Shown here piece by piece: positions 10,942 to 58,262 of a stretch of 64,000 bases of DNA (position 1 is its first letter; each line of letters begins with the position of its first letter). A program made the position numbers and the translations under genes. Source of the DNA: Elusimicrobiota bacterium (GTDB lineage Bacteria; Elusimicrobiota; Endomicrobiia; Endomicrobiales; Endomicrobiaceae); NCBI GenBank assembly GCA_017528425.1, contig JAFXOV010000015.1, positions 62,001 through 126,000 on the forward strand. Reading direction: 5' to 3'. The notes under the pieces were generated by a model, which was given only the letters and a program-made list of their open reading frames with translations, had not been told where the DNA came from and made no database searches.

Positions 10942-11724
10942 TTATTTCTTTTCAGGGTTAATTTTCTGTTGTGAAAGCCAAATTTTCATTATCAGTTTTT
11001 CCGGCAAAAGTTTAGATAAAATACCGCAAGCATTTACATATAAACCGTAAACGGAAATATCTTTGTTATCATAAGCATCTTTTAATGCTTTTTTTACAAC
11101 AACATCGGGTGTAACCATATGAACAAAATTTGTTGTTGCTTTCTTTGCGTTTATACAACCTCTGTCATACAAATTTGTCTTTATCCATCCGGGGCAAACG
11201 GCAGTCACAACAATACCTTTTTCTTTTAATTCTATGTTTAAAGCTCTGGAATAATTTTTTACAAAAGATTTTGTGGCACTGTAAATGTTTTGATAAGGAA
11301 CAGGTTGAAATGCTGCTTGTGAAGCGATGTTTATAATATGAGAGTTTTTACTCATAAACGGAATACAAACCAATCCCATTGCCACAACAGCGGATATATT
11401 GAGATTTATCATGTTTAAAGATTCGTCTATCGAAAGATCCTCATAAGAACAAAACTTTGCAAAACCCGCATTATTGACTAACAGTTTAATATTAATATCT
11501 TCTTTTCCCAAATATTTACCGAAGGTTTTTATGTTGTTTATATCCGATAAATCCGTGGGATATGGTCTGATTTTATTACCGTATTCGTTCTTTAATTCAT
11601 TTAATTTATCTTCACTTCTTGCCAAAACAAAAATTTCGTCGAACTTTTTGTCGTTAATTAAAGATTTCACAAATTCTTTTCCAAGTCCGCTGCTTGCACC
11701 CGTAACTATTGCTATATTTTTCAT
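10942..11724 (-). CDS. Short-chain dehydrogenase/reductase
   Basis: A classical SDR of 260 residues. The Rossmann fold shows TGASSGLGKEF, the NNAG stretch at LLVNNAGFAKF, a catalytic Ser within IINIASQAAF and the YSATKSF motif with Tyr and Lys. It oxidises or reduces a carbonyl or alcohol with NAD(P)(H); DltE-like and ketoreductase proteins look similar and substrate cannot be read. It is the last gene of a minus-strand run that starts with the large helicase at 17032 and has gaps of 8, 51 and 26 bases, so it may be co-transcribed with it. Confidence 0.88.
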   Translation of the reverse strand: MKNIAIVTGASSGLGKEFVKSLINDKKFDEIFVLARSEDKLNELKNEYGNKIRPYPTDLSDINNIKTFGKYLGKEDINIKLLVNNAGFAKFCSYEDLSIDESLNMINLNISAVVAMGLVCIPFMSKNSHIINIASQAAFQPVPYQNIYSATKSFVKNYSRALNIELKEKGIVVTAVCPGWIKTNLYDRGCINAKKATTNFVHMVTPDVVVKKALKDAYDNKDISVYGLYVNACGILSKLLPEKLIMKIWLSQQKINPEKK

Positions 11725-11750
11725 GATTTAAAATATCCTTTTGTTAAATT

Positions 11751-12362
11751 CTATTTTATTATGGAATCGTTTATTTCGTTCGGATAAGAATTTTCTTTTG
11801 CAGATGTAATCTTTTTGTTTTGTTCTATACTCTTTTTTTCTGCCTGTCGTATCTTTATAAAAGCAAATATTATTATAAAGAGAAAAAACAAAGACCATAT
11901 TAAATAATCACGAATAAAAGAAAAGTTTTTGCCTGAAAAAACTTCATATTTGAAAATTTTGTTGTTTTGTAAAGCATCGTTTATTTCTTCTTGCAGTTGC
12001 TCTATGTTAATATCTTCTTTTTTCTTCATAAAAAAAGATATGCTCTTTTTAAATTTACTGTCAGATTGTTCGTTCTTGAAAACGAAATTAAAAATATAGG
12101 ATTTTGATTGTAATAACAATCCGTCTGTTTGTTTTGTTACCGTTACTTTTTCCAACTTTGGTAAGGGAAAATATATGTCTTTAAATTTAGGAACCATGCT
12201 GGTTATATGAAACTTAGGAACAAAAACATCATCGGTTACAGTTGTTTCAAAATCAACACGAATTGTTGTCAGTAACAAAAATATCATTCCTGATATCAGA
12301 AAATATATCATAAAGAATAGAACTATAAGTTTTAAGATTAAAAATTTCAATTTATTTTTCAT
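11751..12362 (-). CDS. Membrane protein of unknown function, two transmembrane segments
   Basis: I do not recognise this 203-residue protein. A long hydrophobic helix lies at about residues 8-32 and a second at about 150-172. The stretch between them (about 115 residues) would lie outside the membrane and is beta-rich with a charged part (KKKEDINIEQLQEEINDALQ). The C-terminal tail is Lys/Glu/Asn-rich and should lie on the same side as the N-terminus. It sits between another unknown membrane protein and the SDR gene in the helicase-led run. Very AT-rich codon use, like its neighbours. Confidence 0.55.
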   Translation of the reverse strand: MKNKLKFLILKLIVLFFMIYFLISGMIFLLLTTIRVDFETTVTDDVFVPKFHITSMVPKFKDIYFPLPKLEKVTVTKQTDGLLLQSKSYIFNFVFKNEQSDSKFKKSISFFMKKKEDINIEQLQEEINDALQNNKIFKYEVFSGKNFSFIRDYLIWSLFFLFIIIFAFIKIRQAEKKSIEQNKKITSAKENSYPNEINDSIIK

Positions 12363-12413
12363 AAAAATATTATATAAAAAATATATGATTAATCATACAA
12401 GATCTTTTATTTT

Positions 12414-12914
12414 TTATAAACTAATAACATAAAACACAAAACATAAAAATACACTTATAGCGTTTGCGATTAGTAACCACCAAAAAGTTTTAAGTAATTT
12501 TATTTTTAACATGAATTTTATAAATAAACCTTCAATCAATGTATTTATAAGAATTACCAACAAATATGCTGCAAGCCAATGGCTCCAGTGAAAAGTTCCT
12601 ATACCGAACTTATCATAAGCATGGAAAACAAAATCAAAAACAATTTCAGAACCTAATCCTGACAGGGGAATAAGTATAATTCCCAATACGGTTGTAATTA
12701 AGTTCATTAAAAACGTAACAATAAAAGATTTTTTCCAATCGGTTTTGGTGAAAAACTTTACAAAGAACAATTCAACAATGAACCCTAAAAGAATCACTTT
12801 TATACTCAACATGCCTTTTGCAATATAAAGCGACGGCCATACAAGATCCGCATTCACGGGTAATGTAACGGATATAACCAATAATATACTTAAAATAATT
12901 TTTCTGATATTCAT
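12414..12914 (-). CDS. Polytopic membrane protein of unknown function
   Basis: A 166-residue protein with a signal-like N-terminus (IILSILLVISVTLPVNA) followed by four likely transmembrane segments. It begins 8 bases after the stop of the 1369-residue helicase gene, tight enough to imply a shared transcript and perhaps translational coupling. Between segments are TKTDWKKSF and YDKFGIGTFHWSHWLAAY. I know no family for it. A small membrane partner beside a large cytosolic nucleic-acid enzyme is a common layout in phage defence loci, but nothing in this sequence alone shows that role. Confidence 0.6.
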   Translation of the reverse strand: MNIRKIILSILLVISVTLPVNADLVWPSLYIAKGMLSIKVILLGFIVELFFVKFFTKTDWKKSFIVTFLMNLITTVLGIILIPLSGLGSEIVFDFVFHAYDKFGIGTFHWSHWLAAYLLVILINTLIEGLFIKFMLKIKLLKTFWWLLIANAISVFLCFVFYVISL

Positions 12915-12922
12915 AAAGATTC

Positions 12923-15900
12923 TTAATTATTTACGGTTTCAATAAACTTTGTAAGCTTTTCCAATTGTTCCGTAGGATTTTTAAACCAATCGGCTGACCA
13001 AATTCTATACATTTTCCAACCTAATCGTTCCAATACCTCTTGCCTTAATCTGTCTCTGTCTCTGATTGTTGCACAAGAATTGTAAGTAGGACCGTCACAT
13101 TCTATTCCTACCAAAAATTTATTCGGATTGTTTTTATCTCTTACAGCTAAATCTATTTTATAGTTTGAACAACCTACTTGAGAAGATACGGAATACCCTT
13201 TTTCATTTAAAACTTTATAAACAGATTCTTCAAAAGGGGAAACAAAATTGTTGTTGTCGGTATGTCCTTCTTTTTTGTTTAAGGCACTTTCACCTTTTTC
13301 TGCAAAATCCAGATATGCCTGTAAAAGTTTTACACCGGTACTGTTTGTTTTCTCTAAATTAAAATCGGAAGCTTTTATTCCGCTGAAAACTTCTATTTTA
13401 TATCTTGCTCGTGTAACAAGCACATTAAGCCTGCGTTCTCCGCCGTCTTGATTGATTGGTCCGAAGTTCATTGAAAGAATACCGTTTTTATTCTTGAAAT
13501 ACCCTACGCTTATCATTATAACGTCTCTTTCGTCTCCCTGAACCGACTCCAAGTTTTTAACAAAGAAATATTCTTGCCCGCCTGTATTAAAAAATTCTTC
13601 ACAGGAAGAATCTTCTTCTCTTAATTTTTCAATTTCATTTTCAATCAAACCTTTTTGTTTAATGTTTAATGTTGCAACTCCCAAAGTCATATTCGGATGT
13701 TGTTTAGCATGTTGCATAACCGCTTTTGCCACGATTTTTGCTTCTTCCAAACACATTTCTTCTTTTGTTGCCGGTGTCGGTGTATGATAAGTAAATTTTA
13801 CTCCCAAAGTATCGGAAGTTTCGATACAGTTGGGGAAAGTATATAAATCCTGATATAAATGTTTATTTGAAAAAGCAATTAAATGTTCGTGTTTACTTCT
13901 GTAATGCCACTTTAACATACATTGCGGAAATCCCGATGTTGTGCATTCGTCAAGAATACTGTCCAAATCTTCTCTTTCCGGTTCTTGTGTTTGTTCTTCG
14001 TCAAATTCTTCGTCTTCCGGTTCAACAACGGTTCTGAAAAAAGATGTTGGCGGTAACTGCTTTGTGTCACCGGCAACAACGAGTTTTGATCCTCTTATTA
14101 TTGAACCGATACAATCTTCGGTAGTTAATTGACTTGCCTCATCGAATATAACCACATCAAAATAAAACAGGTTAGGATCCAAAAGTTGAGCTACCGTTGA
14201 CGGACTCATCATTAAACACGGCTTTAATTCCAAAAACAAGTTTGGAATAGAATGAATAATTTGCCTTAAAGATTTTCTAATTCGTTGTAATTTACATAAT
14301 CTCTTGAGTTCGGTTACTTCTTTTGAATATTGTTGTTTTGCAAAATTCACATTGGAAGAAAGTTTGGATACAAGTCTTTCTTTTGCAGAAACGATTTGAC
14401 CTTTATCGAGATTTTTAAAATCTTTAACCAACTCGTTTTGTTCCAAAGAATTGAAATTTTTTAAAACATCGTTGTTTTCAAAGACATATCCGCTCAGCCA
14501 TATTCTCAAAAATTGTGTTTCCAATGCTGCGGCATAATCATCTAAAAGCAGTTTTGCATCGGAACACTTATTCCAAAATTCGGTTAATCCTTCTTTTTCT
14601 ATTTCGTCTGTTAAGTCCAAATATTTTATCCATAAAGTTAAATCGTCTGCTTTTTGTGAAATTGCCGAGAATTTATTTTTTAATATATTGAAATCAATAT
14701 CGGTATATTCACAAGAGAAAGCTTTATTCCAATCAAACTTCAATATGTCGGTAATAATATCAAACTTATTTTTTATCGGTCCTTTAAGTTGTACTATTGT
14801 ATTTATTGCCGTCTTAACTTTATCGTAATTTATGTTTTTATTCTTTATCTTTTCCGTAATATTTTCTTTAAACGAACCGTCTTCTTTTATAATTTTTTTG
14901 AATTTTAATAAACGAGTACTTTGTATGTCTATATCGTTATCATCGGGATTATTCTTGTTCCAAAATTGCGAATATAATTTTGTTGCTATACTGTCACATT
15001 CATCAAGTTTGGTTATTGATTTTTTTAATTCCTTTACATTGTTTAAATCGTACAAAAGTTCATAAAACCCCGGCCTGTGTTTATTGATAAAAAACTGTTC
15101 AAAGAATTTATAATCTTTATTAAATTTAAAAAACAATTTCGATATAAAACCGCAAAGAGACAACTTAGATATTAAATCATCAATATCTTGGCTTAAAATG
15201 TTCGAATTATATTTATTTTTAACCCTGTTGTTATAAATATTAAACTGTTTTACCGTATCACGAACAGACTTAACATTTTCTTCCAACTTTAAATCTTCGT
15301 TTTCCATGTAAGGCAGTGCCGAAACGGGAATATTTGAAACAGCGTCGGTAACAGTTATAAAATCTTCAAGTTGTGCAAATTTTGTGGTTGGTTTCAACAA
15401 AAGTTCTTCACATAAGATATTAACACTTTGTTCAATATCGTTAATATCTTTTATAAGAGAATCCGTTTCATTTTTTAAATCTATTTTTTCTTTAAGAGAC
15501 AATTCTCTTACTTGTGTACCGTACCAAGCGAACTCTTTCGGATTACCTAATTTTTTTATCGTTTCCGTCATATTGTTGAAAAGTTCTTTTTTTGACGATA
15601 AATCCTTATCCGTCCACTTATCATAATTATCAAATATGTATCTGAAGTCGGGGATATTTTTATTGTCTGAAACAATTCCTATTGCTTTGTAGGGGGAAAA
15701 TTTTACCAACCCCATGGGAGTATGCAACTCTTTCGAGTAAATCTTTAAAGATTTTATGTCGGTTAATATTTGGGTTAAACTTTGCGAGTCGTAATTTCCT
15801 GTAAATTTGTAGTCGAGAGTTTTGGCAAGTTCCGTAAGTACGGTTTTTCTGTTTGTTTTGTTGCTGTGAAGTTCCAAACAAAACGGAGCAAGTCCGTTTG

Positions 15901-52285: not shown

Positions 52286-52463
52286 TTTTATGTACCTCAA
52301 TAAGTTATGTTTTTATTAAACAAATTTAATCTTAAATATTATACTAATTTTTTACTTAAATAGATACAACATTGTATGTGTTAAAATTATCGGCTTGAAA
52401 CTTAAACAAAAAGATATTAAACTATTATATTATTATAATATTTATATATATTTGGGAAAAAGT

Positions 52464-55400
52464 ATGAAAAAAATACTGAGTACAGTTATTTCTTTATGTT
52501 TTATTAACTTAATAATAACCGATATTTACGGCGCTTTCATTCCGAATGCCGCAACTGTTGCCGTTAACAATACGGTCAACTATAACATGCTTCCGGAAGA
52601 TATAGGGAAATTTGTTCGGGATATGTATGTTTTGGGTGATAAAACAATAATCAATATTCAAGATTTGCATTCCGATGAAAATACTCAAAAAAACATTATT
52701 TCCATACTTGAGTTCCTTTCTGATAATTACAACATTAAAAACGTTTATCTTGAAGGTGCCTACGGCAATTTGGATTTCGGTTGGCTGAATGCAATAAAAG
52801 ATGAAAAACTTAAAAAAACAGTAGCTGACAACCTTTTAAAGGAAGGTAAAATTACCGGTACGGAATATTTCGGACTTTTCGAACAAAACAAAAATATTCT
52901 TTTTAAAGGTTTGGAAGAAGAACAAGTATATAAAGAAAATTTTTATATTTTGGAACAGATGTTTGAAAAAAGAGCCGCGATAAACATAAAAATGCAAAAT
53001 ATTTCAAATGTTTTGGAACAGGCTGCCGAAGATATATACAATTTCAGATTAAAAACTTTTAACGATTTGGTTACGGACTATAACGCAAAAAATGTTTCCC
53101 GCAGCGAATATTATGAATATTTACTTAAATTGATACCGAAATCCGTTCCTGAATCCGATTATAAAAATATTATCGATTTCTTAAAATTAGAACAAAATTT
53201 TAAGTCGGTAAACACAAAGAAACTACAACTCGAAATTTCCGAAATAACTGTTCTTCTTAAAGAAAAGTTGCCTTTCGAACAATATACAAAGATACAAAAA
53301 ACGGCAAAAGCTTTTCCGGACAAATATTGTACCGAGTTATTAAATTTTGTTTTAGCAAACAAGTTGGAAAAAAATTATTCCGAGTTTATAAAGTTTTCAA
53401 AATGCTTAAAACAAAGAAACATGTTGGATGCAACAAAAATTTTAAACGAAGAAAAATTTTTAACGGACAAATTGTACGACGAATATTCAAAAACAACAAC
53501 AGAAAAAAATTTGATATTTTTGAATTCTTACACCGAAAAACTTTTGTTGTTCCTTACAAACAACATTCCGTCTTTTGAATATGAATATATCAAAGAAAAT
53601 TTCGGCAGATACTGTATTTTACTTAAAAATTATATTTCAAATACGGATATAACGGAAATAAAACAATGGTATAAACTCGTTAACAGATTTTATTCAAACA
53701 ACGAAAAAAGAAATTTATTCTTTTTGGAAAATATTCTCAATAAAAAAATATCGGAAAAAGATTTTGTAAATAAATTAGTTATTAAAAACGAAGGGAGAAA
53801 ACCTTTTGAAGAAATTTTGCAGAGAACCAAACAACCCATAGATATTATGGTAACCGGAGGATACCACAGTTTGGGGTTGCAGGAGTTAATGACAAAATCA
53901 AACATAAATTATGCGGTTATTATGCCGAATGTTCAATTTGCCGACACCGAAGCCAGTGAAGACAAATTCTATAAAGATTACATAAAACAATATTCGATTT
54001 TATCCAATACATACCAAAAATTTATAAGAAGTTCCGTTATGAATATGGAATGGGAAGATCCGGTAAAAGTTATTATCGGAACATTTTTGGATTATACTGT
54101 TTTACAATCTCTTTCAAACAACTTAAATAACGAACAGGAATTTAATTCCGTTATAGACCTTATACAACAACATTTTAAGGATATACTTCAAACAAAAGGA
54201 TTAAAGTCCGATATAAATATAAAAAACATAGAAATTGCGGAAGGGAATTCTTTCATTATAACCGTTTCGGATAACGGTAAAGAACGAATATTTTATATTT
54301 CTCAAAATGTTGCCGGTGAGATACAGAATAAAAGCGATATATCAACCATGCAACAGGATATTGAAACATTGAACAGATTAACAAAAGAAAAAAAACAAAG
54401 TGAAATAAAAAGAATATTAAAAAAACTTTCGAGATTTATAACTTTTATTTTGGCATTTCCTTTGTTAATGGCTATGGGCGGCGGCGGCGGCGGATTTCGT
54501 TCTTCCGGGAAACAACCGCAACCGAAAGTTAAAACTATTAACGGAACATTTGAATATATTGATACCGTTGTGGAAGATGGTGCACGTGCGATTTTGGAAG
54601 GAAAAATAAAGCTTGATAATGTTTTTGTGAACAAAGGTACAACTCTTACTTTAAGAGCCGGTACAAACACTTCCATAACAATGAAAAACGTGGATTTAAG
54701 TGAAACAGGAGACCTTGATATTACCATAGAAGATAACGGCGATTACGAAATTGTTTCCGAAGACGGTATAGTGAAAGTTTATAAAGTGTTAAAGACGGAT
54801 TTTTCTTCTTCGACAAAACAAAAAAGAGAACTTGTTTCCGTACTGAAAAAAGGAAGTTTGTTTTTGCCGAATGAATCCGACTGGGAATACAAAGAAACAG
54901 ATCCCGTTATAGTTTTTTACGGCAGATACGGTTCTTGGACAAGACAGGAAGATATAAATAAAAGAACCGACCTTATATACAAAGGTAAAAAAGTAATATA
55001 TATTGATGTATCCGATATTACTTCCATGAGAGGAGAAATAGAGAAAGAAAGATTAATAAGAATTTTGGAACAGAATAACCTGCAAGGCAAAAATGTTTGT
55101 TTGGATCTTTCTTTAATAGAAGAACGTTTTTCAAAGCCTTTGGCAACACTCGGTGATATTTGGTCTCAACAAACAAACGGAGCAACTTTTTTAAACACAA
55201 ATATTCCTTTTTCTTTGTTTGTAAAATCTACACATTCTTTTAACAGAAACAACACTCATTTTTATTTAAATCCGGACGGAACATACAAGAGATATCCTTA
55301 TAAAGATCGTAACTGGTTAAAATCGGTATTACAAAAATATATGCCTGCTTTTACGGAAAAAACTTTCGTTTTTGTTTGGCCGGTGGAATCCGTTAAATAC

Positions 55401-58262
55401 ACATATTTTACCCCGAAATATTCCGACGGCGGCGCACCGGAGCAAAGAATTTTGGCGTTCGAACCGTTTAAAGAATTTATGGATAAAGCAAAAAAGTATA
55501 CCGCAGACGGCAAAAATTCAATAGTATTTATGCCCGGCTATTTAATAAGTGAACTTTCATTGTATTTAGGTGACAAAAATATCGGTGATAAATTTGCAGA
55601 TATTACATACGGCGACAGTGAAGAAACAAATCCTTTCAGTATTTGGTACAAGAAACAAGATGCAAAACAAATAGAAAAAATAGAAGTTTTAAAGTTGGAC
55701 GGCTTAACAATCGTTATGTATCCGGAAGGAAACAGAGGTCATAACGAACAGGCATATTTAAAAACTTTAATGGCGACATACAATTTCGGAAAAGAAAGTT
55801 TTGACAGTATGCTCACGCAGGCGGGTTTTTCATGGAAAGCAAACACAGTTTATGTTTATGAAGGCAAAGAAATGGAAAACTTGGACATGGAAGCACAACT
55901 GTTAAAAAATCCGTCCATAAAAACAGGTAAAGTTTCTTATGTGTATGATAATTTAAAAAGAGTTTTTATAGACCTTTATTCAAATATGAACAAATTTTTC
56001 AAAGCCGTAATACCTAAATACATGAAAGGAAATTGGATTTCCTTTGAAAGTGAAGTCAGAGAAACCGTAGATATGACTCAAATAAAGGAAGCTGTATCCG
56101 CAAAATCAAAATTGGGTTTTGAATCCACTGTTGTTATTCCGGTAAATGCAAATGCTTTAAATGAAACTGAATACGGTGAACCGGAAATATTGGAACAGGA
56201 CGGTAAAGAAATAAAACTGTACACTTTGGAATTCGAAGGTTCTAAAATTTATCTTGTCGGGATAGATAATCCGAACACTGCCTGGCAGGACAGTGTTTTA
56301 AATTACATATCGGACTTTTTAAGAGATTACAGAAACAATATTGTTTCGTTTGAAGGTGTTCCTCAATTAACATTATTAAGGTTGAATTATATTCTTTCGG
56401 ACAGTTTTGTTCACTATATTCCGGTTGTATTAACTTCCGACGAAGAAACTTATGAACAAATAGAATCTTTAGGCTACGATGATATCGTTGATACTTCCGA
56501 AATTGTATCAAGAATAGGAAACACGCAATTAAAATATCCGCATGTCGCTTCCGATATGAAAGAAATTTCAGAAGCAATAACCGTAATAAAAGCATTAAAA
56601 AGAAAGTCGTTTTTCGGAAATTTTTCCGACTATAAAACTTCTTATGTAGGTGTAAAAATTGCTTCCGACGAGCACATCTTTAACAGTGAAATGGAAGAAA
56701 ACGAATTTATAGAAATATTGAAAGGAACGGATATAGATTTTGTTACCGTAGTTATAAGAGATAATGATTTGGGTGTCCACGTTTTAAACAGAACAACAAC
56801 GGTAAAGGAAAATTTAACGAAATTATCGGAAAATCTCCATAAAAACAACAAAAAAATAGTTTTGGAATACACTTTCAGATTTGTGGACGAATTCTTTGAT
56901 TCTTTTGTAAGATCGATACAGGAAGATTGTACGGATATGGATTTAGACGGAATAAAGCTCGATTTGGCGGATTGTCCTATAGGAGATATCGGAAAAACAA
57001 TAAAAGATTTTAAAGCAATAAGAGAAGCGCTTCCCGATTTAAGCATATCTATACAGGTGTCAAACGAAGCTTGGGAAAAACATTCTCCGTTCTTTGAAGA
57101 ATTAAAAATCACAAGAACCGTATCAAGTAAAGAGGAACTTCTTTGGGGAGAACACGATTTATCAGACTCTGCCGATGTAAATTATGAAATATCAATATAC
57201 AAGAATCAGCAGGAATATGAACAGAAAGTTTTCAGTTTAACCAATCAAAGAGAAAGAATGTTGGATAAAGATCCCGAACGTCTTTCACCGCAAATGAAAG
57301 CTTTGGTTGACTTGGGAGAAGAAAAATTTGCAGACCAAATAATCGATAACAGATTGGAAAATATTTTTCAAAAAGTTGTTGTTAACGATTCGATAGGCAA
57401 ATTAATTCTTCCCGTTAATATGCTTTATGCCAAAAGATTGGAAAACAACGAAAATTCAAACGTTATACAAGCTGTATCCAACCTTATAAGATTATTTAAA
57501 GAATCCAAAGGTATGGCGGAAAGAAGAAAGTTTGCTTATGAGTACGGTTTGCAGCAGAAAGTAAATTTAACGCCTGAAGAAGAACAGGAAATAGCCCAAA
57601 TTTTAAGAGGAGAAAGTAAAGGAACTGCCGGCAGTTATGTAAGGAAACATTATCCTTTTGTATTTAACTATTTTGTGGAATCAAGACAAACAAGAATAGA
57701 AATAAGTGACAGTTTCTTGTTCGGTATATATGAAGCAAACATTATAAGAAAATATAAAGAAGGACAATTCGGTAAAGTATTGGAATTTGTTCTTGATAAA
57801 AATCTTATTTATAACGATACTCAGGAAGCCGTAGATCAAAGACAAGATTTGTTTTATCGTGCTTTGGCACATATATCTTTATACAGAAACGTAACAAATA
57901 TCGAAGATCTTTTCTCAATAGACGAGAATGATTATGATTTTTATGAAGGGAAAAATTATAAGGAAAATTATTTGAATGCTCTTATAAGAGAAGTTAAAGG
58001 AAGAGACAGAATGAGCCATGTAATGATGGTTTTCGAAAAGGGCTTTCCTTTATTAACAAATATTGCGGTAGGATATCTGCCGAACAGAGAATCGACTTTA
58101 TATGAAGCAAGAATATTGTTAAGAACTTTATCCATGGTGTATACAATGCAGGAAATTGAACCCGTACTACCGGAACTTACCGATGAAGAATTGCAGGTTG
58201 ATGATATGTTCATTAATGAAAATTCAAGCACTTATATTAACGAACTCTTGGCCAGCGCTTAA
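52464..58262 (+). CDS. Giant exported multidomain protein of unknown function
   Basis: From the ATG at 52464 (a TTG 69 bases upstream would only lengthen the signal) the protein has 1932 residues. Residues 1-24 are a signal peptide. About 40-480: a domain that opens with INIQDLHSDENTQKNI (His69), then VYLEGAYGNLDFGWL, and closes with MVTGGYHSLGLQEL (His468); this outline recalls the ChaN/TIKI/TraB clan of metal- or haem-binding enzymes, by eye only. About 658-678: a hydrophobic segment running into six Gly. About 690-780: beta-rich. About 1385-1560: alternating strands and helices like a TIM barrel (DFVTVVIRDNDLG, DLDGIKLDLADCPIGD). The rest is helical. I know no named function. Similar giants occur, from memory, in Elusimicrobiota and Omnitrophota. 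Confidence 0.72.
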   Translation: MKKILSTVISLCFINLIITDIYGAFIPNAATVAVNNTVNYNMLPEDIGKFVRDMYVLGDKTIINIQDLHSDENTQKNIISILEFLSDNYNIKNVYLEGAYGNLDFGWLNAIKDEKLKKTVADNLLKEGKITGTEYFGLFEQNKNILFKGLEEEQVYKENFYILEQMFEKRAAINIKMQNISNVLEQAAEDIYNFRLKTFNDLVTDYNAKNVSRSEYYEYLLKLIPKSVPESDYKNIIDFLKLEQNFKSVNTKKLQLEISEITVLLKEKLPFEQYTKIQKTAKAFPDKYCTELLNFVLANKLEKNYSEFIKFSKCLKQRNMLDATKILNEEKFLTDKLYDEYSKTTTEKNLIFLNSYTEKLLLFLTNNIPSFEYEYIKENFGRYCILLKNYISNTDITEIKQWYKLVNRFYSNNEKRNLFFLENILNKKISEKDFVNKLVIKNEGRKPFEEILQRTKQPIDIMVTGGYHSLGLQELMTKSNINYAVIMPNVQFADTEASEDKFYKDYIKQYSILSNTYQKFIRSSVMNMEWEDPVKVIIGTFLDYTVLQSLSNNLNNEQEFNSVIDLIQQHFKDILQTKGLKSDINIKNIEIAEGNSFIITVSDNGKERIFYISQNVAGEIQNKSDISTMQQDIETLNRLTKEKKQSEIKRILKKLSRFITFILAFPLLMAMGGGGGGFRSSGKQPQPKVKTINGTFEYIDTVVEDGARAILEGKIKLDNVFVNKGTTLTLRAGTNTSITMKNVDLSETGDLDITIEDNGDYEIVSEDGIVKVYKVLKTDFSSSTKQKRELVSVLKKGSLFLPNESDWEYKETDPVIVFYGRYGSWTRQEDINKRTDLIYKGKKVIYIDVSDITSMRGEIEKERLIRILEQNNLQGKNVCLDLSLIEERFSKPLATLGDIWSQQTNGATFLNTNIPFSLFVKSTHSFNRNNTHFYLNPDGTYKRYPYKDRNWLKSVLQKYMPAFTEKTFVFVWPVESVKYTYFTPKYSDGGAPEQRILAFEPFKEFMDKAKKYTADGKNSIVFMPGYLISELSLYLGDKNIGDKFADITYGDSEETNPFSIWYKKQDAKQIEKIEVLKLDGLTIVMYPEGNRGHNEQAYLKTLMATYNFGKESFDSMLTQAGFSWKANTVYVYEGKEMENLDMEAQLLKNPSIKTGKVSYVYDNLKRVFIDLYSNMNKFFKAVIPKYMKGNWISFESEVRETVDMTQIKEAVSAKSKLGFESTVVIPVNANALNETEYGEPEILEQDGKEIKLYTLEFEGSKIYLVGIDNPNTAWQDSVLNYISDFLRDYRNNIVSFEGVPQLTLLRLNYILSDSFVHYIPVVLTSDEETYEQIESLGYDDIVDTSEIVSRIGNTQLKYPHVASDMKEISEAITVIKALKRKSFFGNFSDYKTSYVGVKIASDEHIFNSEMEENEFIEILKGTDIDFVTVVIRDNDLGVHVLNRTTTVKENLTKLSENLHKNNKKIVLEYTFRFVDEFFDSFVRSIQEDCTDMDLDGIKLDLADCPIGDIGKTIKDFKAIREALPDLSISIQVSNEAWEKHSPFFEELKITRTVSSKEELLWGEHDLSDSADVNYEISIYKNQQEYEQKVFSLTNQRERMLDKDPERLSPQMKALVDLGEEKFADQIIDNRLENIFQKVVVNDSIGKLILPVNMLYAKRLENNENSNVIQAVSNLIRLFKESKGMAERRKFAYEYGLQQKVNLTPEEEQEIAQILRGESKGTAGSYVRKHYPFVFNYFVESRQTRIEISDSFLFGIYEANIIRKYKEGQFGKVLEFVLDKNLIYNDTQEAVDQRQDLFYRALAHISLYRNVTNIEDLFSIDENDYDFYEGKNYKENYLNALIREVKGRDRMSHVMMVFEKGFPLLTNIAVGYLPNRESTLYEARILLRTLSMVYTMQEIEPVLPELTDEELQVDDMFINENSSTYINELLASA

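Follow-up and report, generated by a model that had tools for sequence, protein, structure and literature searches.

The window analysed here, a stretch of 64,000 nucleotides, comes from the genome of a rumen Endomicrobia bacterium (phylum Elusimicrobiota) resembling Ca. Ruminimicrobiellum, and its largest gene encodes a protein of 1932 residues whose features are collected in Table 1. An alternative, longer start of this reading frame is a TTG at position 52395. All features that the initial annotation had quoted for the frame, namely the signal peptide, both histidine motifs, YLEGAYG, the hydrophobic segment with its glycines and DGIKLDLADCP, were found in the sequence. The surrounding genes look housekeeping, and the downstream neighbour is not a small co-directional gene but encodes a 484-residue secreted protein on the opposite strand.

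Table 1. Features of the 1932-residue protein and their positions in the window
Feature	Positions	Strand	Basis or remark
Whole gene	52464..58262	+	ATG start, 1932 residues; modular protein with TIKI/ChaN-type head
Signal peptide, residues 1-24, MKKILSTVISLCFINLIITDIYGA	52464..52535	+	Predicted from hydrophobicity and sequence; cleavage near IYGA
TIKI/ChaN-like head, residues 25-545	52536..54098	+	Alignments A1 and A2, AlphaFold2, PF04187 match in distant members
D67-L68-H69, first catalytic-type motif, in IQDLHSDENTQ	52662..52670	+	D67 and H69 invariant in A1 and 18 paralogues
E97, in YLEGAYG, 28 residues past H69	52752..52754	+	Invariant in A1 and 18 paralogues
GGYH, residues 465-468, within TGGYHSLGLQEL	53856..53867	+	G465, G466 and H468 invariant
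Second hydrophobic segment and Gly run, residues 655-677	54426..54494	+	Hydrophobicity; retained in same-genus orthologues
Probable (β/α)8 TIM barrel, residues ~1391-1660	56634..57443	+	AlphaFold2, generic fold matches, lowest dN/dS
Tail STYINELLASA	58227..58259	+	Family consensus ..[IY]RA[IM]L[SA]AA

Judged by sequence comparison, the reading frame is a real gene. Three congeneric genomes contain full-length orthologues with 68-69% identity, while a fourth carries a split, near-identical orthologue and a fifth a fragmentary one of 41-45% identity; two termite-gut Endomicrobium genomes contain orthologues that are 33-38% identical. Nei-Gojobori estimates with two of the 68-69% identical orthologues gave a dS of ~1.0-1.1 and a dN of ~0.20. 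By segment, dN/dS ranges from ~0.1 to 0.4, with the minimum (~0.12) in the presumed barrel and the maximum in the linker of residues 546-690, and these values indicate that every part of the gene is under purifying selection.

Between head and tail lies a region that we call the passenger. Its hydrophobic segment comprises residues 655-673, followed by six glycines (672-677), a β-rich region and then an α/β region. The segment ahead of this second hydrophobic stretch is strongly positive and, given the positive-inside rule, a simple stop-transfer at this position would be ill-suited. The AlphaFold2 model that contains the barrel is poor overall (pLDDT 54, pTM 0.36), with local pLDDT values of ~75-83 in the first half of the barrel, and it matched generic TIM barrels such as MTHFR, aldolases and isomerases. 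The TIM-barrel-like region around DGIKLDLADCP proposed earlier hence holds only at the level of the generic fold. The barrel would probably be a carbohydrate- or small-molecule-active enzyme. A GH13-like reading of DGIKLDLADCP was rejected, as the acid that it calls for does not align among the orthologues. Orthologues aside, no relative of this passenger was detected among the other giant proteins that we collected.

The head domain and the TIKI/ChaN superfamily

The head is predicted to consist of an α/β core and a helical insert of ~300 residues (about 153-425). Its conservation was assessed in two alignments over residues 1-545: A1, with 33 relatives collected without a motif, and A2, with 78 relatives collected by a pattern spanning IQDLH, so that the invariance of residues 65-69 in A2 is partly built in. 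Residues Q66, D67, H69, Q75, E97, G98, E134, N159, N413, R416, G465, G466, H468 and P488, among others, are invariant in A1. The initial annotation had singled out His69 and His468 as the residues whose conservation should be checked; both are invariant in the 33 relatives and, together with D67 and E97, unchanged in 18 of 18 copies in the same genome, many of which are only 20-30% identical. In distant members, which belong to other families of the phylum, GGFH or GGYH is present in 22 of 22, and the 28-residue spacing from His to Glu is kept in 17 of 22. The AlphaFold2 model of the head (pLDDT 85.3, pTM 0.83) contains six core strands (48-54, 61-67, 91-96, 146-149, 459-465 and 482-488) that alternate with helices, and H69, E97 and H468 are each located directly after a strand. 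A cysteine in the core of the signal peptide (residues ~8-14, T-x-x-C-[FL]) recurs in many paralogues, in a context that is not that of a lipobox.

We compared the head with the TIKI/ChaN superfamily, covering ChaN (PF04187), Tiki, TraB, EreA/B, RRSP and HopBA1. In RRSP of V. vulnificus the essential TIKI residues are E3900, H3902, E3930 and H4030 (PMC6254334). The residues D67, H69, E97 and H468 of the head follow in the same order with an equal 28-residue gap from His to Glu, and thus match the TIKI set of two His and two Glu except that the first acid is Asp rather than Glu. A G/Q-[ED]-x-H motif and a G-x-x-H near the end are likewise common to the superfamily and the head, and the strands and helices of the predicted model are suggestive of the parallel β-sheet core with flanking helices that the superfamily has. 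On the other hand, the ~300-residue helical insert, the location at the N-terminus of giant proteins and the many copies per genome set the head apart.

The closest Pfam family is PF04187, reached via distant members: one of them (L187) matches with an E-value of 6.6e-7 and 30.0 bits against a curated cut-off of 27.7, while the query alone has no match to PF04187. Direct comparison of the Endomicrobia head profile with ChaN by hhalign was not significant. The profile of distant members placed GGFH on the G-x-GH of ChaN (E-value 2.6e-4, probability 42%), and a second hhalign alignment, itself not significant, placed QD-x-H over the GE-x-H of ChaN. Searching the PDB for folds gave nothing at an E-value below 1e-3, with the TIKI protein HopBA1 at a non-significant rank 33; the helical insert hampers this search. 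Ordinary known domains, which the initial annotation had named as an outcome that would count against its own proposal, were thus not returned for the head, and searching PDB sequences with the head profile gave chance matches only. The invariant residue set, the order and spacing common with RRSP and the PF04187 matches of distant members make membership of the TIKI/ChaN superfamily well supported at the sequence level, and the earlier description of the first domain as ChaN/TIKI-like is upheld; membership of ChaN proper is not well supported. Two further candidates were set aside, a single sub-threshold Pfam match of the query to the PF02244 carboxypeptidase propeptide, judged to be due to chance, and weak matches to DUF1722 in 13 of 33 heads, which probably reflect helical similarity.

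A family of giant proteins with a common tail

A head profile search of the same genome revealed 18 copies of the head, each at the N-terminus of an open reading frame. These frames range from 488 to about 10,400 residues and total ~64,000 codons, or ~9% of the 2.08 Mb genome. The largest value relies on a joined gene: the contig ends of C58 (L039) and C11 (L157) break within one repeat, LNEDGTLKDNYLDIVKGIIRADKIAEEQAAAVA, and genome G314 of the same genus contains an uninterrupted frame of 10,563 residues; its head and that of C58 match the profile with similar strength, and we therefore consider the two pieces to be probably one gene of ~10,400 residues split by the assembly. The smallest member, C45 (488 residues), consists of a head only and has no tail. 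The initial annotation had named the largest gene of the window as the best candidate for an undescribed system; a candidate system is retained, but it is the family of 18 paralogues with common head and tail, not the single gene.

The tail was examined in 34 non-redundant relatives. Ala occupies position -1 in 31, Ala or Ser position -2 in 29, Leu position -4 in 32 and Ile, Met, Leu or Val position -5 in 33 of them, with Ala at -6 in 18 and Arg or Lys at -7 in 22. The information is limited to about the last 11 residues and the preceding sequences are largely unrelated; a typical member ends in RAILSAA-COOH. As a DNA pattern, [IM]L[SA]AA followed by a stop has nine matches in the genome, all nine at the ends of giants, against none in reversed controls, and two of the nine uncovered giants that the first search had overlooked. 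The tail fades outside Endomicrobia, where other families of the phylum show a helix-like end with little beyond the final Ala. A copy of the tmRNA tag was considered as its source and rejected, since the tag ends in MPIAA and only the final AA is common to both. Another frame, of at least 6614 residues (L159:159-20000, minus strand; G000:C58:18158-37999), ends in AISSAA, with no head match in the part read; this ending may be due to chance or may mark a related class. The tmRNA, at L155:17644-18035, adjoins this frame, and the tag given by ARAGORN, DRKRNDKQIVPNMMLKPMVPAFMPIAA, is unusually long and possibly misread.

Most near-complete Endomicrobiaceae genomes carry 16-22 head copies, and in four genomes of other families 21, 29, 38 and 49 head matches were found, counts in which split genes may appear twice. 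In G325, from another family of the same order, 18 frames with ~122,000 codons occupy 10.8% of 3.4 Mb. About a tenth of the genome is thus given to one family with a catalytic-type head and a common tail, in two species of the same order. Genus g3, which has small genomes and which we take to be Endomicrobiellum, holds 0-5 head copies, some with in-frame stops. No head copies were found in g2, g6, g8 and g10 or in G294, the single-contig 1.6 Mb genome of g4, presumably E. proavitum. By these counts the family appears mostly lost from reduced genomes. In the giants retained there, the sole passenger match is a short metalloprotease-like stretch to C58. Frames of ~5,900-8,300 residues are still present in the g3 genomes G249, G254, G259, G264 and G265.

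Within the reach of our searches the family looks confined to Elusimicrobiota: the best 80 loci all belong to this phylum, in line with the suggested restriction to Elusimicrobiota-like bacteria, and the viral contigs searched gave no matches. Elusimicrobiota are known to be rich in proteins of more than 5000 residues with no COGs assigned (PMC11573180), and the accessible part of that census, which spans Elusimicrobiota, Omnitrophota and others, describes no common head, tail or family. Similarly, a term search of an Endomicrobia genome paper (PMC11257099) found no mention of the giants. No earlier account of a head-and-tail family was found in the literature searched, a body outside which most subscription papers lie, and owing to this restricted scope its novelty is provisional. 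The unexplained tally of huge, unannotated Elusimicrobiota proteins nevertheless becomes a defined, testable class, with four head residues and an 11-residue tail as handles.

Passengers and possible roles of the family

All-against-all BLAST showed that most paralogues are alike in the head only, whereas some giants have internal blocks in common. Pfam and PDB matches identify in the passenger of C18a a complete phosphoglucose isomerase (PGI) followed by a four-domain phosphomannomutase (PMM), in that of C19a the glycogen debranching enzyme GlgX and in that of C19b an MFS transporter. C23 and C43 contain PPDK_N and PEP-utilising domains in reversed order, as in a PEP-synthase-like dikinase, and C4 an ABC1/UbiB kinase with an M48 peptidase. 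Other passengers match UGPase (part of C11), a deaminase (C14), a metallophosphatase (C18c) and an LMW phosphatase (C43), and 31 pieces from other genera gave matches to PGI, PMM, UDPGP, PPDK_N, SecA DEAD-like, HD, GA-module and TPR domains. As a lead only, several of these passengers appear to touch α-glucan and sugar-phosphate metabolism. The embedded PGI keeps the MES, QHS and LGK positions and the embedded GlgX its three catalytic carboxylates D, E and D, and by their residues the passengers look catalytically competent. A stand-alone PGI gene (G000:C18:5069-6532, L161) lies directly upstream of the giant with the embedded PGI (11482-12993, L162); the two are 46% identical, and the embedded one looks like a captured copy. 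In the passengers, HExxH occurs at 10 sites (in C4, C15, C58, C31, C18c and C11b) in ~64,000 residues, compared with an estimated ~0.5 expected by chance from residue frequencies, and metalloprotease domains thus seem to be embedded frequently.

Why should core-metabolism enzymes with intact active sites lie inside giants that bear signal peptides? On balance, we think it probable that the proteins are linked to export and form a large modular family in Elusimicrobiota, in which exchangeable passengers sit between a catalytic head and a C-terminal signal. Architecture, repetition, conservation, tail and intact passenger active sites are seen directly; the steps that would connect them are as follows. 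With its Sec-type signal peptide the protein would enter the envelope via Sec, and hydrolysis by the head, most likely of peptide bonds, would take place there. The tail would be a signal that either a sorting machine or a PDZ-type protease recognises at the C-terminus, and its recognition would allow unrelated passengers to be handled alike. The sorting signals PEP-CTERM, GlyGly-CTERM and the T9SS CTD are likewise short, conserved C-termini of exported proteins that otherwise have no relation to one another. Compared with these, the tail has neither a membrane helix nor a β-domain, being ~11 residues long with a free Ala-Ala end. ATP-dependent kinases and dikinases, PGI and UGPase need cytoplasmic substrates, and such passengers fit export poorly, except where stop-transfer segments would bring them back into the cytoplasm; because passengers use ATP, some of the middles may face the cytoplasm. 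A bolder proposal, which we regard as doubtful, is that a TIKI-type protease head and the C-terminal Ala-Ala tail together make up a reusable carrier, an undescribed system of the envelope by which almost any captured cytoplasmic enzyme is exported and processed, with part of sugar and starch metabolism placed on giant polyproteins. If so, PGI, GlgX, the dikinase and others would run outside their usual compartment.

Alternatively, the giants could be self-processing polyproteins, in which, once exported, the head cuts the chain it belongs to or those of siblings and frees the passengers as separate enzymes, the tail marking the chain end. The peptidases among TIKI proteins (PMC6254334), the whole enzymes in series, such as PGI and then PMM in C18a, and the excess of HExxH sites would all suit such a scheme. 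We nevertheless hold it to be unlikely, given that the head-only C45 implies a role for the head without a passenger in cis and that no cleavage-site signature was noticed, albeit without a systematic search.

Delivery of variable passengers by conserved head and tail into neighbouring cells or protist hosts, as secreted effectors or polymorphic toxins, seems distinctly unlikely. As in polymorphic toxin systems, variable enzymatic modules are paired in the giants with a constant region for trafficking, here between conserved ends, and weak nuclease-like (PBECR3), deaminase, kinase, phosphatase and metalloprotease matches point the same way. However, the variation lies in the middle rather than in a C-terminal module with a downstream immunity gene, and a conserved tail follows it; beside the 1932-residue gene no immunity-gene arrangement is seen among the housekeeping-like neighbours. 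Many passengers belong to core metabolism, and PGI, GlgX or UGPase would be unusual as toxins. Moreover, the losses and stop interruptions occur in the small g3 genomes, probably of protist endosymbionts, where host effectors should be most useful.

Uptake of haem or metal as in ChaN, with a cofactor-binding head and structural passengers, accords with PF04187 as the closest Pfam family but is very improbable, because every residue of the TIKI catalytic-type set is invariant, E97 and D67 would have no obvious need to be kept for binding alone, and the passengers are enzymes that keep their active-site residues.

Tandem arrays of proteins of ~350-520 residues with weak ChaN matches were also observed in another family of the phylum (G075:C19, G072:C11 and G018:C2), and these are possible passenger-free relatives of the head.
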